Positions 35,936 through 51,714 of a stretch of 64,000 nucleotides of DNA are shown piece by piece. Source of the stretch: Cytophagales bacterium (GTDB lineage Bacteria; Bacteroidota; Bacteroidia; Cytophagales; Thermoflexibacteraceae); assembly GCA_013299115.1 (NCBI GenBank), contig JAAFKA010000002.1, forward strand, positions 124,001-188,000, written 5' to 3'. The notes under the pieces are model-generated. The model searched no databases. It was given only the letters and a program-made list of their open reading frames with translations, and was not told where the DNA came from. Each line of letters starts with the position of its first letter. The first letter of the stretch is position 1. Both the position numbers and the translations under genes were made by a program.

Positions 35936-36175
35936 AATGTAGCATACGCTTTAGCGTGTGATTAGTGAAACCTCGGCAGTGGCTTAGGCAGCCCCGTCAT
36001 AGACCCTGCCGATGGTTGAACGGAAGTGGCGAAACTATGAAACCATCGGCAGGGCAAAAAAGCCACTGCCGAGGTTTCTAAACCCTGCCGATGGTTGAAC
36101 GTAGGGGTTTCAAACTATTGGCAGGGTATGAAAAAGACCACAGCCAAAGTTTCTCAACCCTGCCGAGGTTTCTAA
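35936..36175. repeat. REP copy and nested CCTCGGCAGTGGC / CCCTGCCGATGG inverted repeats
   Basis: A REP-like 25-mer (35936-35960) follows the T9SS protein's stop. Then the outer arms gaaacctcggcagtggct (35967-35984) and 36061-36078 enclose the inner arms accctgccgatggtt (36003-36017) and 36041-36055; further partial copies of ccctgccgatggttgaacg run to 36175. The phrase ggcttaggcagccccgtc is shared with 60238 and, in part, 41905. It fills the convergent gap and probably terminates both genes. Confidence 0.8.
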
Positions 36176-36184
36176 GTTTTCTGA

Positions 36185-38047
36185 CTAATCTAAGGTAAAT
36201 TCCTCTTTCCAATTCACTTTTTCCTGCCAGTCGGGTTGTTCTTTTTTCACAAAAAGGTAATTGCCAATGACCAGATACGCAATTTCTGTACGCATAAAGC
36301 ACCTGTACGCATCATCAGGCGTATTGACAATAGGCTCTCCTCTTACGTTAAAACTTGTATTGACTATTACGCCGTAGCCTGTCCGTTTCTTAAAAGTGCT
36401 TATCAACTGGTGGTAACGTGGATTGGTTTCTTTGTGTACAGTTTGAATACGTGCCGAAAAATCTATGTGCGTAACCGCAGGCATATCAGACCGCAAATAA
36501 TACAATTTTTCTTTCAATGGCAAACTATGGTAATTGGCTGGCACTGCTTTGCGTCTGCTTTTTACCACAGGCTGCACCAAGAGCATATAAGGCGAAGGAG
36601 TTTGTTGCTCAAAATACTCCGCCACGTCTTCTGCCAACACCGAAGGGGCAAAAGGACGAAAAGACTCTCTATATTTTACCTCTACATTCAGTTTGCGTTG
36701 CATTTCGGGGCTGCGGGTGTCGCCCAAAATACTTCTTGCACCCAAAGCTCGGGGTCCAAATTCCATTCTACCTTGAATCCAACCTACACAATGTCCTTCT
36801 TCTAAAAATTGGGCTGTTTTTTCTGCCAACTCCGCAAAGTTTTCGAAATGATGATAAGTTGCTTTGTATTTTTTAGCTGTCAATTCCACGTCTAAGTCTG
36901 TAAATTGAGGACCCAAATAAGACCCTCGCAAGTCGTCTAAACCTGTTGGGGTTTTGCGGTCTTTGCCAAAATAAATGTGATAGGCTGCTTGGGCAGCACC
37001 CAAAGCCCCACCAGCATCGCCTGCTGCGGGCTGAATAAAAATTTGTTTGAATAGGTTTTGTTGCAATAGCTTTCCATTGGCTACGCAGTTCAGGGCTACG
37101 CCACCTGCCATGCACAAATACTCCGCCCCTGTCAATCTTTTGGCTTCTGTTGCCATTTTTATCATCACTTCCTCCGTAATTTGTTGGATAGCCAAACCCA
37201 AATTGCAGTGTTTTTGTTCGAGTTCGTCTTCCGAATTTCGGCGTTTGAAACCAAACAAAGCCTCCCATTTGTCGTCTTTTACCATTCGCAACCCCGTAGC
37301 ATAACTAAAATAGTTTTGGTCGAGCCAAATAGAACCGTCTTCTTTAATATCTATCAATTTTTCTTTGATAATTTGCACATAGCGTTGCACATCAGCCGAT
37401 TGGGGGTCGCCATAAGGGGCAAGTCCCATTAGTTTATATTCACCAGAATTGACTTTAAAACCTAAGAAATAAGTAAAAGCAGAATACAACAGACCCAATG
37501 AATGTGGAAATTTGAGTTCTTTCAAAATGCTGATGTCTTTGCCTTCGCCCAAGCAAATGGAGGCTGTTGCCCATTCGCCCACGCCATCGAGGGTCAGAAT
37601 GGCTGCCTTTTCAAAAGGTGCGGGATAGTAGGCACTGGCTGCATGCGAAAGGTGATGCTCTGGAAAAAGCAATTTGATTTTCTTTTTGTCGTAGTCCCCA
37701 ACTTTCTTTAATTCATTGAAAATCAACCTTTTCAAAAACATTTTTTCGTTTAGCCAAACAGGAATAGCCGTAATAAAAGATTGCAAACCACTGGGGGCAA
37801 AAGCATAATAAGTTTCTAACAACCTTTCCAATTTTAGCAGAGGTTTGTCATAAAACGCAATGGCATCTAATTGGTTGAGGTTTACACCTGCATATTGTAA
37901 GCAAAATTGGACTGCATTCACAGGGAAGGCTGAGTCGTGTTTTTTGCGAGTAAATCTTTCTTCTTGGGCTGCTGCCACAATTACGCCATCTTGAATAATA
38001 GCTGCTGCTGAATCGTGGTAGAATGCCGAAATACCGAGTATGGTCAT
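36185..38047 (-). CDS. Carbamoyltransferase, NodU/CmcH family
   Basis: A 620-residue enzyme transferring carbamoyl from carbamoyl phosphate to a hydroxyl of a sugar or secondary metabolite. The N-terminal Kae1-like domain is shown by MTILGISAFYHDSAAAIIQD, the metal/ATP site PEHHLSHAASAYYPAPFEKA and the phosphate loop LTLDGVGEWATA. The C-terminal carbamoyltransferase domain follows with CVGWIQGRMEFGPRALGARSILGDTR and GVIVNTSFNVRGEPIV. It is full length. No nodulation or antibiotic cluster surrounds it; in Bacteroidota such genes often act in surface polysaccharide decoration, which is inference here. Confidence 0.93.
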   Translation of the reverse strand: MTILGISAFYHDSAAAIIQDGVIVAAAQEERFTRKKHDSAFPVNAVQFCLQYAGVNLNQLDAIAFYDKPLLKLERLLETYYAFAPSGLQSFITAIPVWLNEKMFLKRLIFNELKKVGDYDKKKIKLLFPEHHLSHAASAYYPAPFEKAAILTLDGVGEWATASICLGEGKDISILKELKFPHSLGLLYSAFTYFLGFKVNSGEYKLMGLAPYGDPQSADVQRYVQIIKEKLIDIKEDGSIWLDQNYFSYATGLRMVKDDKWEALFGFKRRNSEDELEQKHCNLGLAIQQITEEVMIKMATEAKRLTGAEYLCMAGGVALNCVANGKLLQQNLFKQIFIQPAAGDAGGALGAAQAAYHIYFGKDRKTPTGLDDLRGSYLGPQFTDLDVELTAKKYKATYHHFENFAELAEKTAQFLEEGHCVGWIQGRMEFGPRALGARSILGDTRSPEMQRKLNVEVKYRESFRPFAPSVLAEDVAEYFEQQTPSPYMLLVQPVVKSRRKAVPANYHSLPLKEKLYYLRSDMPAVTHIDFSARIQTVHKETNPRYHQLISTFKKRTGYGVIVNTSFNVRGEPIVNTPDDAYRCFMRTEIAYLVIGNYLFVKKEQPDWQEKVNWKEEFTLD

Positions 38048-38148
38048 CTGAACTGTTAATGAGTTTGTAAAATTTTATGTACAACGAACTTTAGTCCGTT
38101 TTGCCTTACTATAGCAAATTTTGCATACGAATTTTTAAAATTTCATTT

Positions 38149-39147
38149 TTAAAATTTTACTACCAACTTTCCAAACTGCACGCCACTTTTCATTTCGTCA
38201 AGGGCTGAAATAATTTGGTCGAAAGGACGAATGGAGTCGACAATAGGCACCAATTTTTTGCCTGCTACCAATCTCACCATTTCGTCAAACTCTACATCAT
38301 TGCCCATCGTCGTGCCTTGAATACGGAGTTGGTTAAAAAATGCTCGATATAAATCTATGGCTGTGGGCAAACCTTGCGTAGCCCCATAAAACACGATATG
38401 CCCCGCAGGACGCATCATTTTTATCAAATTATTGAAGTTGTCGCCACCGCCACTGTCTATAACCAAATCGAAACCTCCCGAAGTTGCCAATAACTCTTTG
38501 TGCCAATCGGGTTGTGTGTAGTTGGCAGTACCTTTTGCACCTATTTTGAGGGCTTTGTCCAATTTGTCATTGCTACTCGAGGTAACATACACATTTGCCC
38601 CTGTTGCCAATGCAAACTGGAAAGCAAACAAGGCTACGCCACCGCCAATACCTGAAATCAACACATTTTCTCCTTTCTGCACATGACCCTGCGTAAAAAC
38701 TGCTCGATAAGCTGTTAGTCCTGCTAAGGGAAGTGCTGCTGCCCTCTCGCAACTCAAATGAGAAGGTTTTTCGTGCAAACGGTCTACGTTTACCACCACA
38801 TATTCGGCAAAAGTGCCATCTGTAGGCATACCCAAAATATGGTAATGCTCGTGAGATTGCACCACAGGATTAGCACCCCAATCGTTGTTCGGATTGATAA
38901 CTACTTCTTTGCCTACCCAATATTCGTCTGCTTTGGCAGCTACTTGCTCTACCACGCCGCAACCGTCAGAGCCTAAGGTGCAGTCGAATTTAATTTTTGG
39001 ATATTTGCCTTCTCTTATCCACTGGTCGCGGTGATTGAGGGCTGCTGCTTTTACCTTTACTAAGGCTTGTCCTGCTTTGATGCTGGGCATGGGCAACTCC
39101 ACTATGGCAATGCGTTTGGCATTGTCCTGAATTTGCAAGGCTTTCAT
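38149..39147 (-). CDS. Zinc-type alcohol dehydrogenase-like / quinone oxidoreductase family protein
   Basis: A 332-residue NAD(P)H-dependent medium-chain reductase. GroES-like N-terminal domain: ALNHRDQWIREGKYP, TLGSDGCGVVEQV. Rossmann domain: ENVLISGIGGGVALFAFQFALATGA, YVTSSSNDKLDKALKIGAKG. The catalytic zinc ligand Cys normally before the N-H-x-D pattern is absent (ALNHRDQW), as in zinc-free quinone-oxidoreductase-like members, and the four-Cys structural zinc loop is missing. The substrate cannot be predicted. It follows the carbamoyltransferase at 101 bp, same direction. Confidence 0.88.
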   Translation of the reverse strand: MKALQIQDNAKRIAIVELPMPSIKAGQALVKVKAAALNHRDQWIREGKYPKIKFDCTLGSDGCGVVEQVAAKADEYWVGKEVVINPNNDWGANPVVQSHEHYHILGMPTDGTFAEYVVVNVDRLHEKPSHLSCERAAALPLAGLTAYRAVFTQGHVQKGENVLISGIGGGVALFAFQFALATGANVYVTSSSNDKLDKALKIGAKGTANYTQPDWHKELLATSGGFDLVIDSGGGDNFNNLIKMMRPAGHIVFYGATQGLPTAIDLYRAFFNQLRIQGTTMGNDVEFDEMVRLVAGKKLVPIVDSIRPFDQIISALDEMKSGVQFGKLVVKF

Positions 39148-39184
39148 TCGGCTAAGTAGCTGTAAGTTTTTAGTTGTAAATTAT

Positions 39185-41131
39185 TTATTTTTGTCGCACC
39201 AATTTTACATTTTCTACAGGGTCTAACACCATTGGTACTTTTTCTACTATTACCGAACTGCTATCCAAGCCAAACCATTGGGCTTCGGAGGCAGTGTAGC
39301 CTTTGATAGTAAAATAGGTATCCATAATAAATTGGTCGTTTGGTGGAAACTCGTTTTCGTAAGAAAGAAACTTCTCTATGACCACAAATTTAAAGTCGCC
39401 ATTGATATTTTGCTCACGCAACGAAGCATAACGGCTGGTAATATCCACTTCTTTGTTTTTCGACATTTCGTCTATTACTTTCTTAAACATCATATTTATC
39501 CGCAAATCTACCCGAAAACCTAAACGGAAAGTAATTTTATACACATCATTGGTGGCTAAGGTTTCTACCTTGTATTCCATCGTGTGCGGGGCATCAGTCG
39601 TGTCCACGTGAACAAACCAATAAATATCTGCTCGTTTGGGATTTTGCTCGAAAATAGAAAACATAATTTTCGATTCTATTTCGTCCACTCTTTCGGCACT
39701 GGTCATATAAACCAAGTGCGTAGCATAACGGGCTATGCTTTTGTCTTCACTCAATACTTTGAGAGGGTCGACAAAACGGTCAATTTTGACAAACTCGGTA
39801 ACTTGTCTTTTGATTTGGTTTGCCCGCAACCACACATACATCACAAAGGAAATAGACAAAACTAAAATTAAAGATACCCAACCGCCGTGCATAAATTTTA
39901 CCAACAAGTTAGCCGCCATAAATGCTCCCTCAATTGCAACATACACAACCAAAAAAGCAATCACAATCCAGAGAGCAGTGCTTTTGCGGTAGAAAAGGTA
40001 AAAAGCAAGCAAAATAGTTGTCATCATCATGGTTAGCGTAATAGCCAAGCCGTATGCACCCTCCATGTTTGACGATTCTTTGAAGTAAAACAATACGCCT
40101 ACACAACCCAACCAAAGCAGTCTGTTGATACTCGGCACATACAACTGCCCTTTCATATTGCTGGGAAACATCAATTTCACTTTTGGCCATAGCCCCAACC
40201 GAACAGCCTCACTTATCAGTGTAAATGAACCCGAAATTAGAGCTTGACTCGCAATAATGGCTGCCACTGTAGAGATGGTAATGCCTGTATATAAAAACCA
40301 TTCGGGCATGATAGCAAAAAAAGGATTGACTCCGTTCAGGGTAGTGCCTTGTTTGCTCAACAGCCACGCACCCTGCCCAAAATAATTGAGCAGCAAGGTA
40401 GATTTTACAAACACCCAACTGATGCGTATGTTTTCTTTGCCACAATGCCCTAAATCTGAGTACAAAGCCTCTGCCCCTGTGGTACATAAAAAGACTGAAC
40501 CTAAAAACCAGAAACCTCCCGAAGTATTGACCAGCAAATTATAAGCATAATAGGGGTTAATGGCACGCAATACATCGGGGGCTGTGCTTAGCGAAAAAGC
40601 ACCCAATACTGCGAGCATTGTAAACCAAATTAACATCAAGGGACCAAAGGCTTTGCCCACTACGGAAGTACCCAAACTTTGAAAGATAAAAATGACACAA
40701 AGAATAGCCAAAATAATAGGAATGGTGTTGATTTTGGGGTCAAAAATTCGCAAACCTTCTATGGCAGAAGCTACCGACAAGGGCGGCGTAATGACTCCGT
40801 CTGCTAACAAGGCACTACCACCCAAAATGGCGGGTACGACCAACCACTTGGCACGCCGTCTGACTAAGGTGTAGAGAGAAAAAATGCCACCCTCTCCGTT
40901 GTTATCTGCATTGAGGGTTAAAAGTACATATTTAATGGTTGTTTGGAGGGTTAGTGTCCAAAAAATGCAAGACAAGCCACCCAAAATAACGTCTTCTGTG
41001 ATAACGGCTTTGTCTATAATAGCTTTGAGTACATATAGAGGTGAAGTACCAATATCACCATAAATAATACCAAGTGTAACCAATAAACCACCCACTGTAA
41101 GTTTGTGGTGTCCATGTCCATTTGTTTCCAT
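39185..41131 (-). CDS. kup: Potassium uptake protein, KUP/HAK family
   Basis: A 648-residue inner-membrane transporter importing K+ with protons. The N-terminal signature VTLGIIYGDIGTSPLYVLKA is diagnostic, followed by NNGEGGIFSLYTLVRRRAKW and about twelve TM helices to residue about 430. The remaining 210 residues are the cytosolic domain. Length and ATG start are normal. It is transcribed leftwards toward the oxidoreductase, 37 bp apart. No regulator of potassium uptake such as ydaO-type riboswitch was seen upstream. Confidence 0.95.
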   Translation of the reverse strand: METNGHGHHKLTVGGLLVTLGIIYGDIGTSPLYVLKAIIDKAVITEDVILGGLSCIFWTLTLQTTIKYVLLTLNADNNGEGGIFSLYTLVRRRAKWLVVPAILGGSALLADGVITPPLSVASAIEGLRIFDPKINTIPIILAILCVIFIFQSLGTSVVGKAFGPLMLIWFTMLAVLGAFSLSTAPDVLRAINPYYAYNLLVNTSGGFWFLGSVFLCTTGAEALYSDLGHCGKENIRISWVFVKSTLLLNYFGQGAWLLSKQGTTLNGVNPFFAIMPEWFLYTGITISTVAAIIASQALISGSFTLISEAVRLGLWPKVKLMFPSNMKGQLYVPSINRLLWLGCVGVLFYFKESSNMEGAYGLAITLTMMMTTILLAFYLFYRKSTALWIVIAFLVVYVAIEGAFMAANLLVKFMHGGWVSLILVLSISFVMYVWLRANQIKRQVTEFVKIDRFVDPLKVLSEDKSIARYATHLVYMTSAERVDEIESKIMFSIFEQNPKRADIYWFVHVDTTDAPHTMEYKVETLATNDVYKITFRLGFRVDLRINMMFKKVIDEMSKNKEVDITSRYASLREQNINGDFKFVVIEKFLSYENEFPPNDQFIMDTYFTIKGYTASEAQWFGLDSSSVIVEKVPMVLDPVENVKLVRQK

Positions 41132-41264
41132 AGCTGCAAATGTAATAAAAAAACAAAAACTACCTACAAATTATTGATTTTTCTGTTTGGGCAACTCTTT
41201 TTTAATAGATTTAATTTGCTTTTTTCAATCCTATGTTCGTACTTGCAACACTATTTCATTTAGT

Positions 41265-41669
41265 TTGAAAAACAGCCTTACCATATTTTTAGCTTTGCTC
41301 ATTTTGTTGCAACCCTTCAACAAACTCAAAATCATTGCGACTTTTGAGCTAAACAAAGCCTATGTGGTGGCTAATTTGTGCGAAAATAGAGAAACACCAA
41401 AAGGTTTAGATTGTGCTGGACGTTGCTACCTCAAAAAACAACTACAAGCCGCTGCCGAAGAGGAAGCAACTAAAATACCGCAAAGTTTAAAAGAGAAAGC
41501 AGAGCCATGGACTACTTCTCCTCAAATAGTCTTTGAGTTTACACCAGCTACTTTGTTGCCTTGTGTAGCCCAAAATCTTTGCAATTCTTTGTATCTATTA
41601 TGCCCAACTTCTGATTATCCTTCCGATATTTTCCACCCGCCGAGTGTGTGCTATTTTTTTGTGGCATAG
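41265..41669 (+). CDS. Small membrane-anchored protein of the ENR..GLDCxGxCYLKK type
   Basis: The frame is open from 41187; I take TTG at 41265 (134 residues), because the hydrophobic segment LTIFLALLILLQPFNK then forms a normal N-terminal anchor. The conserved part NKAYVVANLCENRETP followed by CAGRCYLKKQL is familiar from small Bacteroidota proteins encoded beside metal-uptake and TonB-related genes; four cysteines are in this region and near the C-terminus. Function unknown. It opens the metal-related block to its right. Its TAG stop lies in the left arm of a 31-bp inverted repeat. Confidence 0.6.
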   Translation: MKNSLTIFLALLILLQPFNKLKIIATFELNKAYVVANLCENRETPKGLDCAGRCYLKKQLQAAAEEEATKIPQSLKEKAEPWTTSPQIVFEFTPATLLPCVAQNLCNSLYLLCPTSDYPSDIFHPPSVCYFFVA

Positions 41670-41963
41670 CCTTAAGCCCAATGCTGTTAAGCTAAAAAAG
41701 CAAAACAAGTAAAGTTTTAATTAATTGGTTATCAATCAATTAAATTTCTTTTTAAGTCCGTAGGACTGCAATATTTATAGCAAAAGTGCGAATCTACTCC
41801 CCTAAGTGCCGTAGCAGTTCCACTGTGGGCAAAATATATCGTGCCTACGGCACTTTGAAGTGTAGGAATATGACTTGCTATAAATATTTCGTGCCTAACG
41901 GCACTTAGGCAGCCCCACTTAAAAACACTTTCTTAGCTTAATAGCATTGGGCTTAAGCCTATG
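41665..41963. repeat. 299-bp element with 31-bp terminal inverted repeats
   Basis: The left arm 41665-41695 and right arm 41933-41963 (ttagcttaatagcattgggc plus ttaagcctatg) match with two mismatches. Inside are smaller palindromes such as ctaagtgccgtag / cctacggcacttt and a second cgtgcctaacggcacttagg. It resembles a miniature inverted-repeat element. It fills most of the gap 41670-42044 and its left end contains the previous gene's stop codon. The rest of the gap is A/T-rich. Confidence 0.8.
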
Positions 41964-42044
41964 AATTTGTCTAATTATTAGCACTGACTATGCGTATTTG
42001 CATAGAGTTTATGCTGTTTTTTTCACACTCAAAAAAATATTACA

Positions 42045-42857
42045 ATGAAATTATCATTCTTTCGCATAGCTGCGTCTGTAGCTACTGCCTTGATTTTAAA
42101 TAGCTGTTCAAACTCTGAAGTAGCACCTGAATTTAACCCAAACGACAAAGGAAGCATTGTGCTTGAATTTGACAATGTAATGGGTAACTCAAATTTTAAT
42201 CTAAATAGCACTTACCAAAATACTGTTGGGGAAGATTTTCAAGTTGATTTGCTACAATATTATGTTAGTAACATCAAATTGAAAGATGACAAAGGGAAAG
42301 AATATGTTGTGCCGCAAGATGAGAGTTATTTTCTTATCAAAGAAGCCGATGTAGCAAGTCAAAAAGCAAAAATCAATAATGTGCCTGCGGGAAATTATGT
42401 AGAAATGACTTTTACATTGGGCGTTGATAGTTTGCGAAACACAACGGATATTAGTCAAAGAACAGGTGTATTAGATATTGGCGTAGAAGGAATGGGGAAA
42501 GGCATGTATTGGAGTTGGAATAGTGGTTATATTTTCTTCAAAATGGAGGGAACTTCACCAACTATTAACTCAGCTGATAGAAAATTTCGCTACCACATTG
42601 GCGGTTTTGGTGGTTATAGCTCAAAAACTATCAACAACATAAAAACCATTACTTGCAAATTTGGCACGTCAAAAGCTACGGTTCGTAAAGATATTGCCCC
42701 AACTGTTCATACGACTGTCGATATTTCAAAAGTATTTAATGGCACAACAAATGTAAGTTTGGCTACTAATCCAACAGTCATGTTTTCGCCTTTTTCGGTA
42801 AATGTATCAGCAAATTATGCCAATATGTTTTCGGTTCATCACATTCATAACGACTAA
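42045..42857 (+). CDS. MbnP-like copper-associated lipoprotein
   Basis: A 270-residue predicted lipoprotein (lipobox LILNSC, Cys21). The family pattern is clear: FDNVMGNSNFNLN, VDLLQYYVSNIKLKDDKG, and the Trp-rich motif GKGMYWSWNSGYIFFKMEG (Trp156, Trp158), with a C-terminal HHIHND. In characterised MbnP a tryptophan is converted to kynurenine by the partner di-heme enzyme MbnH, creating a copper site. The partner gene follows 80 bp downstream, supporting the assignment. No methanobactin gene (mbnA) is visible, so a role in copper or other metal handling outside methanobactin use is likely. Confidence 0.85.
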   Translation: MKLSFFRIAASVATALILNSCSNSEVAPEFNPNDKGSIVLEFDNVMGNSNFNLNSTYQNTVGEDFQVDLLQYYVSNIKLKDDKGKEYVVPQDESYFLIKEADVASQKAKINNVPAGNYVEMTFTLGVDSLRNTTDISQRTGVLDIGVEGMGKGMYWSWNSGYIFFKMEGTSPTINSADRKFRYHIGGFGGYSSKTINNIKTITCKFGTSKATVRKDIAPTVHTTVDISKVFNGTTNVSLATNPTVMFSPFSVNVSANYANMFSVHHIHND

Positions 42858-42937
42858 GTAATTGTAGTAAAACAAGAAAATAAAGAAATAACATTTCTCA
42901 AAAAAATGTTATTTCTACAAAATTTCTACAAAACATT

Positions 42938-43960
42938 ATGAAAAAACTATTATGTATCTTTTTGATTTTCAGTGTAATAGCTTGTGCTGAAAATTCAGAA
43001 TTACAGCCTGAAATACGTTTTGTTGTACCCCAAAACTTTCCTGCACCACAATATAACTTAGCAAAAAATCCGATAACAACAGCAGGTTTTGAGTTAGGTC
43101 GTGCTTTGTTTTACGATGGTATTTTGTCGAGAGATGGTAGCATCAGTTGCGGTTCTTGTCATCAGCAGTCATCGGCTTTTACACAACATGGACATGATTT
43201 AAGTCATGGCATTGATGATAAATTGACAAAACGTAATGCTTTACCCATTCAAAATTTGGCTTGGGAAAAAGAGTTTTTTTGGGACGGTGGCGTGTTTGAT
43301 TTAGATTTGTTTGCTATTTCGCCCATTGAGGCACACAACGAAATGGACGAAACCTTACCAAATGTGTTAGAAAAATTGCGAAAAAGTAACAAATATCCGC
43401 AATTATTTGAAAAGGCATTTGGTTCAAAAGAAATTACGACTGCAAATTTTTTAAAAGCCTTATCACAATTCCAACTGATGTGTATTTCTGCTAATTCGAG
43501 ATATGATAAATACATTCGCAAAGAAGGTGAAATGCTAACTAACGAAGAATTGCAAGGTTTAGCTATTTTCAAACAAAAATGTGCCACTTGCCATTCGGGA
43601 GAATTATTTACGGATATGAGTTTTAGAAACAATGGTTTGCAAATTGGCAATCCTGAAGACAAAGGCAGGGCTTTGATTACGCTGAATGAAAATGACAACT
43701 TCAAATTTAAAGTACCAAGTTTGCGGAATGTGGTTATGTCTGCACCTTATATGCACGATGGACGTTTGCGGAATTTAGAAGGTGTAATAGAGCATTATCA
43801 AAATGGTGTGAAAGACAGCCCAACTTTAGATAACATTTTAAAACAAGATGGCAGGTTAGGCATTGCAATTTCGCCAGATGAAAAAGTAAAACTAATTGCT
43901 TTTTTAAAGACTTTGACAGATGAGCAATTTTTGAAAGACAGAAAACTATCAGAATTTTAA
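42938..43960 (+). CDS. MbnH-like di-heme cytochrome c peroxidase/MauG family enzyme
   Basis: A 340-residue exported protein (signal ILFSVIAC-like region ends with Cys16, probably a lipoprotein). Two heme-c sites: CGSCH (71-75) and CATCH (215-219); the distal-side motif SAPYMHDGRL and the family element FFWDGGVFDLDLFAISPIE are present. MbnH is a MauG relative that oxidises its partner MbnP; adjacency to the MbnP-like gene makes this more likely than a plain H2O2-scavenging peroxidase. It requires a c-type cytochrome maturation system, not seen here. Confidence 0.87.
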   Translation: MKKLLCIFLIFSVIACAENSELQPEIRFVVPQNFPAPQYNLAKNPITTAGFELGRALFYDGILSRDGSISCGSCHQQSSAFTQHGHDLSHGIDDKLTKRNALPIQNLAWEKEFFWDGGVFDLDLFAISPIEAHNEMDETLPNVLEKLRKSNKYPQLFEKAFGSKEITTANFLKALSQFQLMCISANSRYDKYIRKEGEMLTNEELQGLAIFKQKCATCHSGELFTDMSFRNNGLQIGNPEDKGRALITLNENDNFKFKVPSLRNVVMSAPYMHDGRLRNLEGVIEHYQNGVKDSPTLDNILKQDGRLGIAISPDEKVKLIAFLKTLTDEQFLKDRKLSEF

Positions 43961-44060
43961 CCCACTAATGACACGAATCACACGAATTAGCAAGCTACGC
44001 TTGCAGCAATTATAGAGCAAACGAAGTTTGCTAATTCGTGAAATTGGAGTAGTTCAGGGC

Positions 44061-44195
44061 TTAAAGTAATACTCTTTTGTATTCCAAAGATTCATTACCA
44101 AAATTGGCTATAATGCCTAATTTGAGTTTCGAAACGGCTAAATAGTTAAGAGTTTGCTTAACTTTTGATTCTTGTTTGTAGAGTAGTTTTTCCAT
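44061..44195 (-). pseudogene. GxxExxY-family C-terminal fragment
   Basis: A 44-codon frame (ATG at 44195, TAA at 44061-44063) reads QTLNYLAVSKLKLGIIANFG and ESLEYKRVLL, which lines up with the C-terminus of the intact GxxExxY protein at 5095-5490 (AINYLEVYNLEIGLLINFG, SLIFKR). The signature G-x-x-E-x-x-Y half and nuclease core are missing. The left part of this 295-bp gap holds an imperfect cacgaattagcaag / ctaattcgtg inverted repeat. A decayed relic. Confidence 0.7.
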
Positions 44196-44255
44196 AATCT
44201 GTTGTGTGTTTTATCACTTTTATAAAACTGTTAAAAATTTAAGCAATTTTCAAGT

Positions 44256-45170
44256 ATGAAAAAAATATTTTTTTTGTTAGTTTTCATCAGTCTCTATGAC
44301 TTTACTTTATTAGCTTGCGACATCTGTGGTTGTGGAGTTGGTAGTTATTACATGGGCATCATGCCGCAATTCAATCGCAATTTTGTGGGTATTCGTTATC
44401 GTCATTCGAGTTTTGATTCTCATATTGGACATGGTACACAAGACGGATTATTTAGCAGTACCGAAACGTTTCATACAGCTGAAGCCTGGGCAAGGTACTA
44501 TCCAGCTAAAAAGATTCAGTTATTGGCTTTTATTCCCTTGCAATATAACCAACAAAAAAGTGCAGAAGGCACAAAAACCTTACAAGGACTTGGTGATATA
44601 TTAGTGATGGGAAGTTACAATCTTTTTAAAACTCCTTTGGATACAATTAAAAGAATTTTTAAGCATAATTTATTTGTGGGAGGTGGGGTCAAACTACCAA
44701 CAGGCAACTATGTTTATCAAAATACAACCTCAATAGTTGCCAATCCCAACTTTCAATTAGGCACAGGAAGCACAGATTTTTTGCTCAACCTGACCTACAC
44801 CATTCGCCATAAACAAATGGGGCTTAATACAGACATAACCTATAAAATCAACACAACTAACGGCAATAATTATCAATTTGGTAACAGAATAAGCAGCAAT
44901 GTGGCTTGGTTTTACATTGTTCAAAAAAAGAAGTGGACTTTTATGCCCAATGTGGGCTGTTATACTGAATATGCTGCAAAAGATACAGAAAAACAACAAA
45001 GGATTAGCGAAACAGGTGGACACTGGATGGCTGCAACCACAGGATTAGAAACCTATTATGGGCGTTATGTGATGGGTATTAACGGGCAAATTCCTTTTGC
45101 TCAAAATTTGGCATCAGGCAATATCAATGGTAATGTAAGATTAGTAGCACATTTTAGTTTTTTGTTTTGA
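44256..45170 (+). CDS. Outer-membrane barrel-like protein with N-terminal CDICGCG motif
   Basis: A 304-residue exported protein. After a signal peptide the mature chain begins CDICGCGVGSYYMGIMP; the first Cys follows LLA and may be lipidated, while three Cys in seven residues suggest metal binding. The rest shows barrel-like strands (NFVGIRYRHSSF; IQLLAFIPLQYN; FVGGGVKLPTGNY) ending in VAHFSFLF with the terminal aromatic typical of outer-membrane proteins. I recall this kind of protein near MbnP/MbnH genes in other Bacteroidota. Probable role: metal sensing or passage at the outer membrane, inferred from context. Confidence 0.65.
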   Translation: MKKIFFLLVFISLYDFTLLACDICGCGVGSYYMGIMPQFNRNFVGIRYRHSSFDSHIGHGTQDGLFSSTETFHTAEAWARYYPAKKIQLLAFIPLQYNQQKSAEGTKTLQGLGDILVMGSYNLFKTPLDTIKRIFKHNLFVGGGVKLPTGNYVYQNTTSIVANPNFQLGTGSTDFLLNLTYTIRHKQMGLNTDITYKINTTNGNNYQFGNRISSNVAWFYIVQKKKWTFMPNVGCYTEYAAKDTEKQQRISETGGHWMAATTGLETYYGRYVMGINGQIPFAQNLASGNINGNVRLVAHFSFLF

Positions 45171-45245
45171 TTATATAAATTTTATTACTATTCAACTATT
45201 AATAATTTACGAACAGGTTTTGAGTAGAAAGGTGCGGAGTTTTTT

Positions 45246-45368
45246 ATGAATGTAATGAATTTGACAGACGAATTACATGCAAATTCGGCAAGTCGTGGCA
45301 ATAATGCAACAGACCGTAGCACTTTTACCGCAGCAGCACCTCGTACTTTTGTGTTGGGTATTCAATAG
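45246..45368 (+). pseudogene. TonB-dependent receptor C-terminal fragment
   Basis: A 40-codon frame reads MNLTDELHANSASRGNNATD then RSTFTAAAPRTFVLGIQ. The N-L-T-(D/N)-E-L plus A-P-R-T-F-x-L-G-I pattern is that of the last strands of TonB-dependent receptors; the usual final aromatic strand residues are missing at the stop. The plug and nearly all of the barrel are gone. Its place beside MbnP, MbnH and a barrel gene suggests that a metal-uptake receptor was once encoded here. Right of it, inverted sequence tattttctgtagctacgg / ctacagaaaa (45386-45466) follows. Confidence 0.55.
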
Positions 45369-45465
45369 AGTTTTATAGGCAGAAAATAATTTTTATTTTC
45401 TGTAGCTACGGACTGAAGTCCGTAGAAAATATAGTCTGCGGACAGAAGTCCTCAGCTACAGAAAA

Positions 45466-46074
45466 TTATTCAGTTGCATATAAATTGACAATATATTGCA
45501 AAACACCAAGTAGTTTAGGTAAGTCGGCAAGATAAAAAGTATTGGTATCGACATAAGCTATTTGGTTTTGAAGTAGGATAAATTGCCAAGTTTTGCCATC
45601 GGTAACAGCCCCATAAATAAATGGTAGCATTTTGCCTTTTTGTTCATTAAAAAGGCTTGCACCACACATTTGGGCTATGGCTTGTGGCAAGGCTTTGTCT
45701 AAACGACCTATTTTAGCTTCTGTAATGCAAAAAACGGGTGCTTGAATACTGTATGATTTGGGGCTTTTGCTAAAAATAAAATCAATTTCGCCATTCAAAC
45801 CTTTTTTGGTATCTACATTAAGTTGTTCGCCAGAATAAAGTTCTATGGTATCTGCATTGCGAAGTTTGATTTCGGACAGAATAGGCGAAACCCAGTGTTC
45901 ACAAACTGCTTTTTCGGTGGTTATCATCATTTGGCTTTTGGAAGCCAATGTATCTACTAATAAATTGGAGGGCTGAACAAGATTTATGGTAACATTTTTA
46001 AAAAGTTCATCAGTGGTTTGGTGAACTCCTAATTTGGTTTGTAAATCTTCTATATGAAATTTTCGGTAAGACAT
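45466..46074 (-). CDS. Uncharacterised protein with PD-(D/E)XK-like core
   Basis: A 202-residue protein without signal peptide. The segment GLNGEIDFIFSKSPKSYSI, VFCITEAKIGRLDKALPQAIAQ gives a D ... E-A-K ... Q pattern of restriction-endonuclease-like proteins such as those seen in cyanobacteria and Bacteroidota. The rest is unassigned. It is inserted in opposite orientation into the metal-related block and may be a mobile or defence remnant. Function unknown. Confidence 0.6.
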   Translation of the reverse strand: MSYRKFHIEDLQTKLGVHQTTDELFKNVTINLVQPSNLLVDTLASKSQMMITTEKAVCEHWVSPILSEIKLRNADTIELYSGEQLNVDTKKGLNGEIDFIFSKSPKSYSIQAPVFCITEAKIGRLDKALPQAIAQMCGASLFNEQKGKMLPFIYGAVTDGKTWQFILLQNQIAYVDTNTFYLADLPKLLGVLQYIVNLYATE

Positions 46075-46348
46075 CGCAATAAAGAGTTAACTAAGTTTCA
46101 CAAATATACAAATAAAAAAACTAAGCCTTAGAAAATTTTTAATCCACAATTTATGTAGATAAATTTGAAAAAGAAAACCGCAAGAGATATTGTTATGATG
46201 TAAGAGATATTGTTATGATGTGTTTTGCATTAGGAAATTTTTTGGTGGCAAGTTTGGGAATGGTGATGTTGTTGAAAAGACTGAATGTGAAATAAAAAAC
46301 ATAACAATAATTGTGTACTTAACACCACATTAAATATTTATAAAACCT
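46075..46348. other. Intergenic stretch with 20-bp tandem duplication and a 26-codon ORF
   Basis: The unit aagagatattgttatgatgt is duplicated exactly (46182-46201 and 46202-46221). A short frame from ATG 46215 to TAA 46295 reads as one hydrophobic helix (MMCFALGNFLVASLGMVMLL). It could be the last TM helix of a lost membrane protein or chance; I do not claim a gene. The DUF4198 promoter must lie near 46300. Confidence 0.4.
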
Positions 46349-47140
46349 ATGACAAAAAAACTTTTATTACTCATTGCCTTATTCTGTTTTACGCCATTAT
46401 TTGCTCACGAATGTTGGGTGGCAGCAAAGAAATTTGTGTTGCAAAAAGGTGAAATTGCAACACTTTCCCTGCACGTTGGCGAAAATTTTGAGCCTGAAAT
46501 TTGGAAAGGAAAAATTGAAACTTTGCACTACTTTAATGGCAAAGATAAAAAAGATATTTTACACTTGCTCAAAGATACAGCAACCAGAATTTTTGATTTA
46601 CCTTTGGAAAACGAAGGTACACAAATGGTAGCTTTACACAGCAAAGATAATTTTATTAGGTTAGAATCTGCAAAATTTAATAGCTATTTACAAGAAGATG
46701 GTTTGCTTGATGTGTTAGAATTTCGCAAGCAAAACAATCAAATAGATAGTTTTGGAACAGAGTTGTACCAGCGTTGCAATAAAATTTTATTGCAAGTTGG
46801 CAACAAAAAAACAGCCACCTACAAGCAGAAAGTAGGCACTCGGTTGGAGATTTTGCCTGAACAAAATCCCTACAACAAACCAAAAAAATTGCAAGTAAAA
46901 ATCTTATTTGACAACAAACCAGCAGCCAAGATTTTGGTCGTATTGTGGGAAAGAATTAATGGTAAAACCTTGAAAACCACACAAATAAGTGATAAAAATG
47001 GTTTGGTAAATTTTGTGCCAACTTATCAAGGTAATTGTATGATTAGCACTGTAAAAATGGTTGAAAACGACAAAGAAACACAGCTAAAATCAAAAGCACA
47101 ATGGCATAGTTACTGGGCAAATTTGACTTTTGGAATGTAA
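46349..47140 (+). CDS. DUF4198-family periplasmic protein
   Basis: A 263-residue exported protein: signal peptide LLLLIALFCFTPLFA, then a mature N-terminus HECWVAAKKFVLQKGE. The beginning is typical of DUF4198, a family tied to nickel, cobalt and other metal uptake systems, with an Ig-like C-terminal domain (KLQVKILFDNKPAAKILVVLWE; DKNGLVNFVPTYQG). The mature chain starts with His if cleaved after LFA, which would allow an N-terminal metal site. It lies in the metal-related block, convergent with the ZnuA-like gene. Confidence 0.75.
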   Translation: MTKKLLLLIALFCFTPLFAHECWVAAKKFVLQKGEIATLSLHVGENFEPEIWKGKIETLHYFNGKDKKDILHLLKDTATRIFDLPLENEGTQMVALHSKDNFIRLESAKFNSYLQEDGLLDVLEFRKQNNQIDSFGTELYQRCNKILLQVGNKKTATYKQKVGTRLEILPEQNPYNKPKKLQVKILFDNKPAAKILVVLWERINGKTLKTTQISDKNGLVNFVPTYQGNCMISTVKMVENDKETQLKSKAQWHSYWANLTFGM

Positions 47141-47154
47141 AAATAATATTACAT

Positions 47155-48078
47155 TTACTTCGCTGCCAATGCCTCTACAATCTGCCTACTATTGGCTGTT
47201 ATCATGCCTTTGTATGTGCCTTCTGCGGTGTTGGCTGCTCCCATTGCATCAGTAAAGAGATGTCCGCCAATTTTTACCTCGTGTCCCTTGGCTTTGCAGC
47301 CCTGTACAACTGCCTGAATAGATTTATCGGAAACAGAGGTTTCGGTAAAAATAGCCTGAATTTTTTTGTCGCAAATCAACTGCACAAGGTCTGCCACATC
47401 ACGCAAGCCAAACTCCGCAGCCGTAGAAATTCCTTGTAATCCCTTGACCTCTATGGCATAACGTCTGCCAAAATACCCAAAAGCATCATGCGAAGTGATT
47501 AAAAGTCGTTGCGAAGGAGGAATTTGGGTTAGTTGCAAACGAGTTACAGAGTCTAAGTTAGCCAAGACTTGCAAATAATTTGCTGCATTGGTTTCATAAA
47601 AAGTTTTGTTTTTCGGGTCGTGCAAAGGCAGGTGTTTGGCAGCACGTTGCAAGGCTTTTGCCCATAGCTGCACGTCAAACCAAATGTGAGGGTCGGGCGT
47701 ATGCGTGGCACTGTCTGCCCACAACAAATCGTGGTGTATCAACCCATCTCCCAACGCTATAGTTGGTTTCAACTTGCCCAATTTTTCCATAATTTGCCCC
47801 ATTTTGCCCTCCAGATGCAAGCCGTTGTAAAAAATAATGTCTGCTTCGTATAGTTTTTCCAAATCTCCTGTGGTGGCTTTGTAGAGGTGAGGGTCCACAC
47901 CTTCGCCCATGAGAGCAATTACCACTGCCGAGTCTTGCACTATGTTTTTAATGCCATCAGCTATCATGCCTGTTGTGCAAACAATGGTAAGTTGTTGCCT
48001 ATTTTTTTTGATTGCTGGCGAACAAGAGGCAAAAAGTGCCAAGAAAATAAGGAGTAAAGAAAATGAAATGCGGTACAT
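47155..48078 (-). CDS. Metal ABC transporter substrate-binding lipoprotein, ZnuA/MntC (A-1) family
   Basis: A 307-residue binding protein from ATG at 48078, which starts the signal (LLLIFLALFASC, lipobox Cys). Cluster A-1 motifs: IVCTTGMIADGIKNIV, EGVDPHLYKATTGDLEKL (first His), PDPHIWFDVQLW (second His), ITSHDAFGYFGRRY, and IFTETSVSDKSIQAV (Glu, later Asp). His, His, Glu/His and Asp usually bind Zn or Mn. The His-rich loop of zinc ZnuA is short here (HHDLLW, ATHTPDPH), which leans toward Mn or mixed use. Permease and ATPase genes are not adjacent. Confidence 0.88.
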   Translation of the reverse strand: MYRISFSLLLIFLALFASCSPAIKKNRQQLTIVCTTGMIADGIKNIVQDSAVVIALMGEGVDPHLYKATTGDLEKLYEADIIFYNGLHLEGKMGQIMEKLGKLKPTIALGDGLIHHDLLWADSATHTPDPHIWFDVQLWAKALQRAAKHLPLHDPKNKTFYETNAANYLQVLANLDSVTRLQLTQIPPSQRLLITSHDAFGYFGRRYAIEVKGLQGISTAAEFGLRDVADLVQLICDKKIQAIFTETSVSDKSIQAVVQGCKAKGHEVKIGGHLFTDAMGAANTAEGTYKGMITANSRQIVEALAAK

Positions 48079-48132
48079 GAGGTGAGAAAAAAGTTGTAAA
48101 CAACTAAACAATTCAATAGAATTTTGTTATTT

Positions 48133-48648
48133 TTACTCTTGTTCTGTTTTATGAAACTTGGGCAATTCTATGAAGTTAAAATCCAAATCTTTCAATTGGT
48201 CGGCACTCCGATTATGTTCTTGCGTTTCCACATCAAGAATCAAATGCCTTGATAAATAATTTTTGCCTTCTAAAAATTCAAAATTCAAAATCCCAATAAA
48301 AATAACGGGTTTTAATTGGTGGTAATTTTCTCCTGCATTGAGTTGGGCAGCATAAGATTTGGCACTATAATAAATTACTCTGTTGGCAAAACCAATTCTG
48401 TCCGTAACCTGCATCTCCACAATGTACTCATTACCTGCCTTATCTCTTGCTTTTACGTCTAAAATGGTAGATTTCCCCCCCAAGACAATAGGCACTTGAT
48501 AAGGATTCAAAATAGCAACCCAAATAATTTTTCTGTTGCCTTCAAATTTCAAAACAGCATTGAGAAACGAAATCAAAATTTCGGTTTTATTTTCATTACC
48601 AAATATTTTGCGAAAAGCAATATCATTTTTTATATCTGCAAATTGCAT
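48133..48648 (-). CDS. Rpn / PD-(D/E)XK nuclease family transposase, shortened
   Basis: 171 residues from ATG at 48648. The N-terminus MQFADIKNDIAFRKIFGNE and NAVLKFEG, the nuclease core ILDVKARDKAGNEYIVEMQV and LKPVIFIGILNFEF are those of Rpn-type proteins that promote recombination. Family members are commonly about 270-310 residues; this frame stops after LDFNFIELPKFHKTEQE, so about 100 C-terminal residues are lacking. The core catalytic part survives, so it may still be active, or it may be a decaying copy. Confidence 0.78.
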   Translation of the reverse strand: MQFADIKNDIAFRKIFGNENKTEILISFLNAVLKFEGNRKIIWVAILNPYQVPIVLGGKSTILDVKARDKAGNEYIVEMQVTDRIGFANRVIYYSAKSYAAQLNAGENYHQLKPVIFIGILNFEFLEGKNYLSRHLILDVETQEHNRSADQLKDLDFNFIELPKFHKTEQE

Positions 48649-48688
48649 AGTTTTCTTTTTTACAAAATTAAGCAAAAATAATCACTTG

Positions 48689-51451
48689 CTATCTATAATA
48701 CCAATTATTCCTACGGCTCAACTTCAAATCCCTCAGAATTGCAGATTTTACATTTATATCAAAGGTAAAGCCTGTGCGAGGACCAAAAGGAATCCACGTA
48801 ACAGCCATTTGCCAGCAGTGCAAATCTCGGTTGATATTGAATTGGGTAAAACTAAAAGTGCTGGCTACAAAATCCCAACCCGACTGAAAACCTACTTTCC
48901 ATTTTTTGGTTAGGCTCACGTCGCCATTAAAGTTCATGGTTTGGGTAACTCTTGCTGCTGCGAAACCTTGCTTGGCGTAAGATAAATTGTAACTCACTGT
49001 TAAGTTCCAAGGAATGGTAAAGTCCACATACAAATGGCGGTTGCGGTTGATAAAATCAACTTCTTGTTGGTCTTCGGGATTCTTTGCTTTGTATTCTTTG
49101 GTGGCAGCCTTGCGGTTGAGGTTGGTGGAAAGTGCTACGTTTACACTGGTTAAAGTACCTAAACCTTGCCCTTTGTCCCATGCGTAAAACTTCGACCTAT
49201 ACGGCGTTGGTGCGGTAACAGTGGCAGGTCGGGGTTGCAAAGAGCCTAAATCTGTGCCTGTGGTGGGTGTGGTATTTTCAACGAATACATAAGCATAAGG
49301 GTCTAAACTTCCTGAAATGTTTAACGAAAGTTGTTTGAGCAGATTGGTACGAGCAGCCAAATTAAAAGGTGCTAAATTCATTGAATCTGCCACAAAATTG
49401 TAACTCGATGACACACTAAAATCGTCAAAAATGGTGATTTTAGTAGGTGTTTTGATAGAATCACTTGCAGGTCTTACCTTAATTTCCAACTGGTTTGCTA
49501 AGGAAAAATTAACCGAACCATTTGTTCCTTGACGCGGCGAACCAGCCGAAGAAGGGAAAACCGACTGCCTGCGGTACTCTGTACCCGCCGCATTGGGTAT
49601 GTATTGGAAAAAACCATGTGCCTCGCCTGACATATCAGGTGAGTAGCTAAGTCCTACTGTTGGTATCATTTTGTGGCGAATTGCTTGGATTTTGCCCTTC
49701 AAAAAATACATCATATAAAGCTGGGTCGATACATTGGTATTGAAGCTATAATCGTACAATCGGGACAATTCTCTTACTGTATCCACTATTACGCCACCCC
49801 GATTGAAGGTATAAGCACCCAAATTGGCTTCGCCTGCACGAGGTTCGGGGTTGCCATTGCGTAGATAATATCTCTCAAAAACCCACGTTTCATTGTAATT
49901 TGCCCCTAACGAAAGGTTAAAATTATTGGCTATGGTGGTGGTGGTGCTGATAGGTATGGCATGACGCACCGAATGTTGGGCTTGCTTAAACATTCTTTCA
50001 AAATTGGCAGGGGCAAAACTCAAGGTGTCGGGTCGGCTGTTCGGCACATTGGGATTGGCTGCTACTAAATTCGTAAAACCTGTTTGGGCTGTGCCTGTGT
50101 AAGACAAATTGACCTGACGAAACAAAGATTTACTGTTGGGATTCAATTTACTTTTGAACGGAAAAATCCTGTTCATAGAGAAATTCATATTGGGGTTGAT
50201 GTTCACAATTTTGGTAATGATGTTTTGCGTATGCCCCAACGATGCCCCAAAAGAAAATGGCGTACCTTCAAACGACTTGTTGTAGCTGACGTTTGAGTTC
50301 ATGGTAGATTGCAAAAAAGCAGTGGCTGCATTGCCCGGTAACATCATTCTTCGGTTGGAAGTGTTTGTACCAAAGTTTGCACTTGCCGTAAACCTGCCTG
50401 TGCCTTTGGTCTGGGGCGTATGACTCCACGTTACGTTGAAGTCATTGGCAACAGACCTATCTGTTCTGCCCTCTATTTCCTCAAAGGTTTGCAAGAAACG
50501 AAAGCCAATATTGCCCGAATATTTGTATCTTTTTTTGTAATTGATAGTGCTGCGAAAACCCCAACGACCTCTGCTGTGAAATTCTGTAGCCAACAAAAAG
50601 TCGAAATATTGGCTCACGTTGAGGTATAAACCACCGCCTTCGAGAAAAAAGCCATTGGTTTGTGTTTCGCCATATTGCGGAAAAATTAGCCCTGAACGGC
50701 GGCGGTTGGGCTGGGGAAACATACCAAATAAAAAGCCCAAAGGCGTAGGCACACCTGCAATTTCGAGGTTAAAAAGTCCTGAAACTGTAACTTTGTCGGG
50801 TATGACCTTCATTTTTCGAGAACGAATACCAAAGTGAGGGTGAGGCAAGTCGCAAGTGGTGTAAAGCCCTTCTTTGACGTACATACTGTTTTCGGGTGTT
50901 TTTTTCACTGTGCTACCCACCACAAAACCCTCATCTTGTTTGGTGCGGATACCTGTGATGATGCCTTTGCGAGTTTTGAAGTTATAGGTCATGGCATCGA
51001 TGTCGTATTTTACGCCCTGCTCCGTAAATACAGGCTTGCCGACCACCTGCCGTTTTACGGTATCGAAACGGCTGCGTGCCTTCACTTCGTTGCGCTGCCA
51101 ATTCAAATCTATGTTTTCGGCATTGAGAGATATTTTTCCATAAACCACCTCCGAGCCACCAAACATATAAATCATTTTTTTGCTTACATTGAACCGAATA
51201 GAATCCTTTGCCTGATATTTTACTGTGGTTTCTATGTCTTTTTGCAACTTTTTAACCTCTTTTTGGGCTTTTTTCTGTTGCGTCGTATCTTTCAAAGCCT
51301 CTTTCAAGGTCTTTTGTACCGTATCTTTTACGGCTTGCAAAGTTTTTTCTATGGGCTGCACAGGGGGCAACACAGGATTTTGCCCCCATAATTGGAAGGA
51401 GGCAAGCAAAACCACAAAAAGTATGGAGAAAGTAGAAGTTGAAAATTGCAA
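48689..51451 (-). CDS. LptD-like outer-membrane LPS assembly protein
   Basis: A protein of about 920 residues. I choose TTG at 51451, directly before the signal peptide (STFSILFVVLLASFQLWG); the TTG at 51493 lies within the predicted -7 promoter element. The N-terminal half has the OstA-like beta-jellyroll (KMIYMFGGSEVVYGKISL, AENIDLNWQRNEVKARS, RKGIITGIRTKQDEG) and the rest is a large outer-membrane barrel (PQPNRRRSGLIFPQYGETQT; RNRHLYVDFTIPWNLTVSYN). It would insert LPS with an LptE partner. Bacteroidota copies usually lack conserved disulfide cysteines of E. coli LptD, as here. Confidence 0.88.
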   Translation of the reverse strand: MQFSTSTFSILFVVLLASFQLWGQNPVLPPVQPIEKTLQAVKDTVQKTLKEALKDTTQQKKAQKEVKKLQKDIETTVKYQAKDSIRFNVSKKMIYMFGGSEVVYGKISLNAENIDLNWQRNEVKARSRFDTVKRQVVGKPVFTEQGVKYDIDAMTYNFKTRKGIITGIRTKQDEGFVVGSTVKKTPENSMYVKEGLYTTCDLPHPHFGIRSRKMKVIPDKVTVSGLFNLEIAGVPTPLGFLFGMFPQPNRRRSGLIFPQYGETQTNGFFLEGGGLYLNVSQYFDFLLATEFHSRGRWGFRSTINYKKRYKYSGNIGFRFLQTFEEIEGRTDRSVANDFNVTWSHTPQTKGTGRFTASANFGTNTSNRRMMLPGNAATAFLQSTMNSNVSYNKSFEGTPFSFGASLGHTQNIITKIVNINPNMNFSMNRIFPFKSKLNPNSKSLFRQVNLSYTGTAQTGFTNLVAANPNVPNSRPDTLSFAPANFERMFKQAQHSVRHAIPISTTTTIANNFNLSLGANYNETWVFERYYLRNGNPEPRAGEANLGAYTFNRGGVIVDTVRELSRLYDYSFNTNVSTQLYMMYFLKGKIQAIRHKMIPTVGLSYSPDMSGEAHGFFQYIPNAAGTEYRRQSVFPSSAGSPRQGTNGSVNFSLANQLEIKVRPASDSIKTPTKITIFDDFSVSSSYNFVADSMNLAPFNLAARTNLLKQLSLNISGSLDPYAYVFVENTTPTTGTDLGSLQPRPATVTAPTPYRSKFYAWDKGQGLGTLTSVNVALSTNLNRKAATKEYKAKNPEDQQEVDFINRNRHLYVDFTIPWNLTVSYNLSYAKQGFAAARVTQTMNFNGDVSLTKKWKVGFQSGWDFVASTFSFTQFNINRDLHCWQMAVTWIPFGPRTGFTFDINVKSAILRDLKLSRRNNWYYR

Positions 51452-51490
51452 GTTAATAGTAGTTTTGTTGAAAAAGTTTCTAACCCACTG

Positions 51491-51522
51491 CAAAATTACC
51501 TTTTCCTTTGAAATTACAAAAC
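51491..51522 (-). promoter_or_regulatory. Promoter of the lptD-like gene
   Basis: On the minus strand, GTTTTG at 51522-51517 is followed 18 bp later by TAATTTTG at 51498-51491, close to the Bacteroidota -33/-7 consensus. The -33 element lies inside the 52-bp direct repeat (51504-51555). At the other repeat copy this sequence reads GTCTTG and no -7 element follows. Confidence 0.6.
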
Positions 51523-51555
51523 AAGAATCAGCGGCTTAACATTTTTTGTGAAAAA
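51504..51555. repeat. 52-bp direct repeat, left copy, flanking the ATPase/partner operon
   Basis: Begins tcctttgaaattacaaaaca and matches 54139-54190 at 50 of 52 positions in the same orientation. It forms the upstream region of lptD. The sequence between the copies (51556-54138) holds a 71-bp palindrome and two genes, giving the layout of an inserted cassette. Confidence 0.92.
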
Positions 51556-51572
51556 AATGAGGAGAAAACTGA

Positions 51573-51643
51573 ATTTTGTGAATACTTACCGAAAGATGTC
51601 ATCTTTTCAAAAGATGACATCTTTCGGTAAGTATTCACAAAAT
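51573..51643. repeat. Perfect palindrome, 35-bp arms, 1-nt centre
   Basis: The arms 51573-51607 and 51609-51643 are exact inverses. The core aaagatgtcatctttt is shared with the palindrome at 14984-15046 (there in opposite order), while the outer 15-20 bp differ. It lies between the divergent lptD and ATPase genes, inside the presumed cassette. Confidence 0.92.
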
Positions 51644-51684
51644 CTATTCCTTGCTTTTTTATTTTTAGAAACAGAAAAAATCCT

Positions 51685-51692
51685 TAATTTTG
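51685..51692 (+). promoter_or_regulatory. -7 element of the ATPase/partner operon
   Basis: TAATTTTG lies 22 bp upstream of the ATG at 51715 and fits TAnnTTTG. It gives the cassette a promoter of its own, separate from its neighbours. Confidence 0.5.
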
Positions 51693-51714
51693 CACAAAAT
51701 AATCATTTCACATC

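Follow-up and report, generated by a model that had tools for sequence, protein, structure and literature searches.

The closest described counterparts of the gene block considered here are copper-responsive operons headed by small leader proteins. The block lies in a 64,000-nucleotide (nt) stretch of a Cytophagales bacterium genome (contig JAAFKA010000002.1, positions 124,001 to 188,000; hereafter the window), and consists of genes for a small Cys-containing protein, smallC, an MbnP lipoprotein, an MbnH-like di-heme protein and a predicted outer-membrane barrel. Bordetella CruR, of the DUF2946 family, has an export signal and a CXXC motif, with RAPP at a fixed distance towards the C-terminus; it leads the cruR-bfrG/crtA-bp2921/crpH operon, which is turned off by the presence of copper, and operons of its type contain TonB-receptor, PepSY, SCO and MbnPH-like genes (PMC9426467). 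Stalling of CruR at RAPP has been shown in vitro (PMC12992588), and the Bordetella receptor and PepSY protein have themselves been described (PMC12914433, PMC13038864). CutF carries a CxxxC and a C-terminal Pro motif, and in its case copper switches the operon on, a stem-loop lying over the Shine-Dalgarno site (PMC9973294).

For the phylum Bacteroidota a 2025 survey gives copper-related RAPP/RGPP leaders as not found (PMC12992588). A survey of Sec/YidC arrest peptides did find Bacteroidota leaders ending in Pro (PMC10987492), so that there is precedent in the phylum for stalling at C-terminal prolines, and the CutF-like list D of the 2023 paper contains many Bacteroidota proteins (PMC9973294), so that smallC cannot be presented as a wholly new class. 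On the side of the structural genes, the MbnP/MbnH of methanobactin operons (PMC3621798) and CorA/CorB (PMC3912023) are alike in pairing a surface protein with a di-heme partner gene, and MopE and CorA are established as having kynurenine copper sites (PMC3912023). In the open-licence literature, supplements aside, we found no report of a Bacteroidota copper leader with an F[HRQ]PP motif, of its tie to MbnP/MbnH or of the barrel, whose hallmark is the sequence CDICGCG.

We consider that the block is probably the central part of an operon for copper acquisition in Bacteroidota, led by smallC as a copper-sensing arrest peptide. We lean, by a smaller degree, towards the broader proposal that smallC represents a separate, Bacteroidota-wide family of arrest peptides with an F[HRQ]PP motif of its own, in which periplasmic copper would be sensed by a CxxxC some 67 residues from the active site of the ribosome. 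On this proposal, the operons under its control would be ones for copper acquisition, among them a new outer-membrane copper module made up of MbnP, MbnH and a barrel with a CxxCxC N-terminus.

A conserved gene neighbourhood

Conservation of the block was assessed from three starting points, with related species carrying equal weight in the counts and identical smallC sequences entered once. Starting from the barrel, 84,980 species genomes were scanned and 139 relatives found, the best 80 loci being kept. On the same strand and no more than 4 kb away, 76 of these have MbnH and 75 have MbnP, while smallC lies within 9 kb in 71. In the three loci with none of the three, the barrel gene is less than 700 bases from the start of its contig. 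The initial annotation had counted the lack of a neighbourhood shared with relatives against its proposal, and for the barrel such a neighbourhood is there. Starting from MbnP, 40 regions around homologues in relatives were fetched, 39 of which became loci (L033-L071). They hold smallC, MbnP, MbnH and barrel together in 11 cases, MbnH and MbnP with smallC in six, MbnH and MbnP in six and MbnP with smallC in one. The conserved unit is smallC - MbnP - MbnH - CDICGCG barrel.

The initial annotation had placed a methanobactin-free MbnP/MbnH pair in a wider metal-handling block that included the DUF4198 and ZnuA-like genes downstream. Both genes are indeed present (46349-47140, plus strand, PF10670; 47155-48111, minus strand, PF01297), and that the two would form a single functional unit with the rest is suggested by the spacing of the genes, all within 5 kb in the window. 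Yet, in single-sequence searches with the window proteins, DUF4198 was found in four of 106 barrel loci (99 distinct barrels) and ZnuA in none, and the ZnuA-like gene lies on the opposite strand. We regard such a wider unit as very improbable, and both genes were ruled out as cassette members on those counts: of the original proposal there stands a conserved block, whose likeliest role is copper acquisition, without these two neighbours. More frequent companions within 6 kb of the barrel are proteins of TonB-receptor type (29 loci, a broad cluster), DJ-1/PfpI-like (21), His-rich (13), SCO1 (10) and PepSY-like (8) proteins; SCO1 was named by Pfam and the others from inspection of the sequences.

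The third starting point was smallC itself, for which 60 regions containing 65 smallC genes, out of 157 genomes, were hand-picked in order of match strength from those listed. In 28, the next genes on the same strand include MbnP, MbnH or the barrel. The gene directly after smallC encodes MbnP in 19 of the 65 cases, the barrel in three and another smallC in two; of the remaining 40, 26 encode a protein with the Plug domain of TonB receptors, and genes of SCO1 and YtkA-like type are seen too. PepSY_TM was found in seven of the 31 second genes scanned. In relatives the operon often extends to a TonB receptor and to a membrane protein of PepSY type.

Two further arrangements were seen around smallC. 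In L106, L110, L120, L145 and L152 it is followed by a gene of about 310 codons (YtkA-like in one) and then by one of about 670 codons with no Pfam match, a further, unnamed module after which a second smallC and MbnP-MbnH often come. In L204, L209, L231, L243, L201 and L213 smallC genes are tandem or repeated within the locus, each having MbnP-MbnH or a further smallC after it.

The leader candidate smallC

The initial annotation had noted in passing a Cys-rich small protein upstream of the pair; it is present and has become the most informative member of the block. Its open reading frame, ending at 41669 on the plus strand, contains no ATG, and its TTG at 41265 lines up with the initial Met in relatives, giving a protein of 134 residues (41265-41669). 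Alignment with 20 relatives reveals a hydrophobic N-terminal stretch and six invariant columns only, namely C39, C50, C54, L56, P125 and P126. The Cys motif, C39 followed by C50xxxC54, is encoded at 41379-41426 and the terminal FHPP, eight residues short of the stop, at 41631-41642. No Pfam or NCBIfam family covers the protein, and its profile matches 157 of 395 Bacteroidota genomes. Upstream, at 41186-41218, TTTG and TTAATTTG are spaced by 21 nt, a pair which, with one mismatch, we take to resemble the Bacteroidota promoter.

The terminal motif was examined in 161 distinct smallC sequences, the window's own and 160 others, read in context. All 161 have Pro-Pro (PP) within the last 15 residues, compared with 49 of 2503 other genes (2.0%) and 21 of 598 background genes of 100-200 residues. 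Immediately ahead of PP there is His in 82 sequences, Arg in 34, Gln in 18 and Lys in seven; the position before that is Phe in 120, and the resulting F[HRQ]PP sits 1-11 residues ahead of the stop. Because the search model itself included PP, a second one was made that covers just the N-terminal half; with it, 75 of 75 smallC sequences in barrel-seeded loci and 19 of 19 in MbnP-seeded loci again have the terminal PP, these being the sets that the control covers, the loci L104-L163 having been found with the PP-containing model. The distance from the last Cys of CxxxC to PP is also narrowly distributed, at 62-72 residues (mean 67.4, standard deviation 2.1) in the 143 of 160 measured, the other 17 falling outside the Cys pattern and being excluded from the count; a looser Cys pattern allows 154 to be measured, with one outlier at 143. 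The spacing in the window protein is 70.

SmallC can be read in two ways. It may be a membrane-anchored periplasmic copper chaperone for MbnP, the barrel or the receptor, with the PP end serving as a structural or docking tail, as its hydrophobic N-terminal segment and three invariant Cys would allow and as would suit neighbours that are envelope metal proteins. Against this, the composition is near-random from about 40 to five residues before PP (the Cys, Leu and PP columns being invariant by selection, so that only the remaining columns are informative), yet F[HRQ]PP is held fixed close to the stop. Nor would a chaperone account for the long gap downstream of smallC, whose median is 122 nt (n=159), compared with 11 nt among the other cassette genes (n=225), or for weak starts, an ATG being absent from the range expected, 31-60 residues before the first Cys, in 48 of 135. 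This would fit weak translation, the start-codon counts for smallC and for other genes having been made over different ranges. We judge the chaperone unlikely, although it is the strongest of the alternatives. Upstream, 47 of 160 smallC genes have an opposite-strand gene, 75 a same-strand gene at a distance of at least 30 nt, 36 a nearer same-strand gene and two an edge; since these distances run to the edge of the open frame instead of the start codon, the gap is underestimated.

As an arrest peptide, smallC would be inserted by its N-terminus in the inner membrane during synthesis, and its Cys and CxxxC would reach the periplasm at about the time that the ribosome arrives at F[HRQ]PP near the stop. 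Of some 67 residues, roughly half would be inside the ribosome tunnel and the remainder could extend across the translocon; on such general knowledge the spacing would put the cysteines near the periplasm while the PP codons are read. By analogy with CruR, the ribosome would stall at F[HRQ]PP when copper is lacking and the downstream genes would be expressed, while copper on the cysteines would release the stall and attenuate expression. The opposite, CutF-type direction, with copper switching the operon on, is possible.

The likeness to CruR comprises small size, a Cys motif, a C-terminal PP at fixed spacing, the first position in the operon, a long gap and the partners TonB receptor, PepSY_TM, SCO and MbnPH (PMC9426467). 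As for the differences, smallC has CxxxC and a third Cys in place of CXXC, F[HRQ]PP in place of RAPP and a spacer of about 67 residues rather than 45, and comes from a different phylum. On present evidence smallC would work like CruR without belonging to its sequence family, and its assignment to DUF2946 was rejected on the searches of 20 members and of the genome given below. With CutF, smallC shares CxxxC, the C-terminal Pro motif, the character of a small predicted exported protein and copper neighbours (PMC9973294); its 134 residues, PP eight residues from the stop and MbnP gene 375 nt downstream agree with the corresponding CutF-like rules. In contrast to CutF, we found no comparable RNA structure after it. 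Taken alone, the first 120 nt after smallC appeared to fold at low energy (mean z -1.75, n=79), but control gaps did not lie above them (-2.27, n=161, compared with -1.73, n=139), and an RNA attenuator was dropped as a candidate for that reason. Terminator-like sites, 13 against 7 in shuffles among 147, are barely above expectation, and Rfam has no match in 36000-52000. The 3' half of smallC genes has a C-over-G skew of 0.154, compared with -0.037 in other cassette genes, which would fit a Rho site; we do not use it as support, since codon usage might by itself produce such a skew.

MbnP, MbnH and the barrel

The MbnP-like lipoprotein with YWSWNSGY reported by the initial annotation is encoded at 42045-42857 on the plus strand and matches PF20243 with E 1.2e-54 and 185.5 bits, well above the gathering cut-off of 27. 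Its score against the equivalog TIGR04052, 60.7 bits, is under the curated cut-off of 140. The AlphaFold model (mean predicted local distance difference test score, pLDDT, 82.6) has as its best PDB matches the six chains of 7l6g, Methylosinus MbnP (E 1.1e-10 to 2.0e-9, template modelling score about 0.5). A profile alignment of the two proteins (E 9e-06) matches WxW to WxW and the His that follows to its counterpart; in the window these are W156 and W158 (42510-42518) and H184 (42594-42596), all three invariant in 17 of 17 relatives. The four-Cys motif named in the title of 7l6g does not extend to the window protein, which has two Cys only, including that of the lipobox. Confidence in the modelled WxW loop is low, and we therefore make no statement on the geometry of the site.

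The di-heme partner, likewise borne out, is encoded at 42938-43960 on the plus strand. It matches PF03150 (CCP_MauG) with E 1.1e-52 and 179.1 bits (cut-off 25.6), its best solved structure is 6e1c, a 'Di-heme enzyme', and both CxxCH heme sites are invariant in 17 of 17 relatives. The best NCBIfam model is TIGR04039, at E 2e-66 and 224.3 bits, below the cut-off of 362.85. By the curated NCBI cut-offs, then, neither MbnP nor MbnH classifies as a strict equivalog. MbnH makes a kynurenine-type copper site in MbnP, and here too the MbnH-like protein would oxidise a Trp of WxW to give such a site.

The absence of a methanobactin gene, as noted by the initial annotation, holds as far as PF05114 is concerned: the genome has no MbnB-family protein, two control genomes having given matches, and a methanobactin operon was rejected on that basis. 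Window MbnP resembles its methanobactin-operon namesake in the 7l6g fold, WxW and His, while the locus differs from methanobactin operons in having no MbnB-family protein, in its scores below the TIGR04052 and TIGR04039 cut-offs and in having the barrel and smallC as partners. A second MbnP, 30% identical to the first, is encoded elsewhere in the genome (positions 9370-10119 of locus L003, contig C23), where it adjoins ABC-transporter-like and vWA-like genes with no MbnH in the surrounding 19.5 kb; orphan MbnP proteins of this second kind are also found in relatives.

The barrel gene (44256-45170, plus strand) was reported as starting with CDICGCG. The protein is there, but since a signal-like N-terminus precedes it, the motif (CxxCxC, 44316-44336) marks the predicted mature start and not the first residues. 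Neither Pfam nor NCBIfam gives a match. Structure comparisons against the PDB with Foldseek and VIA-align relate the AlphaFold model (mean pLDDT 74.4; residues 12-35 below 50) to the COG4313 channel 4rl8, with Z 23.7 and a root-mean-square deviation of 2.9 over 250 aligned residues; other barrel families in the list score lower, each of them still a candidate. The likeness is one of fold: identity is 12%, and the window barrel family differs from COG4313 channels in its CxxCxC N-terminus, retained in 104 of 111 barrels, and in its constant partnership with MbnP/MbnH. Together with the TonB receptor, the barrel would pass copper across the outer membrane.

Whether the metal is copper at all depends in part on the receptors, nine of which were compared with NCBIfam. 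The TonB copper receptor model TIGR01778 is the best for three, while six, including that of L187, the closest to the receptor fragment in the window, best match siderophore or PqqU models. An operon for another metal or substrate, such as iron, zinc or a siderophore, with MbnP/MbnH not forming a copper site, would suit those six receptors, the scores of MbnP and MbnH under the equivalog cut-offs, and the DUF4198 and ZnuA-like genes close by in the window. It would sit badly with the three TIGR01778 receptors, the SCO1 and PepSY partners and the MbnP fold with its conserved WxW and His, and we consider it improbable. Mainly because the receptor matches are mixed, we infer copper rather than state it.

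The window copy and its significance

Several further observations weigh against a copper-acquisition operon led by an arrest peptide. Some concern the family as a whole. The TIGR01778 scores of the three receptors fall below the cut-off; MbnP stands alone in 15 of the 39 MbnP-seeded loci, many of these being the second kind of MbnP; a same-strand gene lies less than 30 nt upstream in 36 of 160 smallC genes; no excess of RNA structure or terminators over controls follows smallC; DUF2946 matches none of 20 smallC members at E up to 10, and nothing in the genome; and the low-confidence regions of the models hold the MbnP WxW and the barrel CxxCxC. Others concern the window. The TonB receptor that relatives have after smallC survives here as a C-terminal stub of 63 residues; no PepSY_TM protein was found in the genome by a search in which controls gave matches; and a repeat is inserted directly after the leader.

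That repeat (41665-41963, borders approximate) is mobile-element-like, with 36-nt inverted ends; it abuts or overlaps the smallC stop codon and, at about 300 bases, has 62 matches in the genome, many partial and several nearly full length. The stub (45195-45383, plus strand), 62% identical to the intact receptor of L187, confirms the TonB-receptor fragment of the initial annotation; the next-best genome matches to the receptor reach 25-33% identity over the N-terminal part only. With a repeat at the leader's stop codon and a receptor reduced to a stub, the operon here looks disturbed. MbnP, MbnH and the barrel are intact, and this genome's copy, which looks partly decayed or rewired, may be in the course of shedding its receptor arm. 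A small-gene remnant on the minus strand between MbnH and the barrel (44061-44210) is 75% identical over 32 residues to an intact small gene at the same place in Thermoflexibacter ruber, presumably GxxExxY-like, and appears to be an insertion shared with that species and now decayed.

Some other features of the genome may be mentioned. Between the barrel and DUF4198 lies a minus-strand open reading frame of 202 residues (45466-46074) with no Pfam or NCBIfam match, a relative of which sits beside an orphan MbnP in L053. Adjoining the ZnuA-like gene is a PD-(D/E)XK transposase-like gene (48133-48675, PF12784), a further sign of mobile DNA near the block. The genome encodes one COX2 protein, a possible copper client; a search for nosZ gave no match, the controls being equally silent.

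The work on CruR and CutF established, for Proteobacteria, how nascent peptides control copper genes. If our reading of smallC is true, it extends the mechanism to another phylum, and a different PP motif in the equivalent operon position would explain why copper-related RAPP/RGPP leaders were not found in Bacteroidota. Equally, MbnP/MbnH pairs that occur without methanobactin would gain a defined operon, a role in copper handling and a new partner in the outer membrane.

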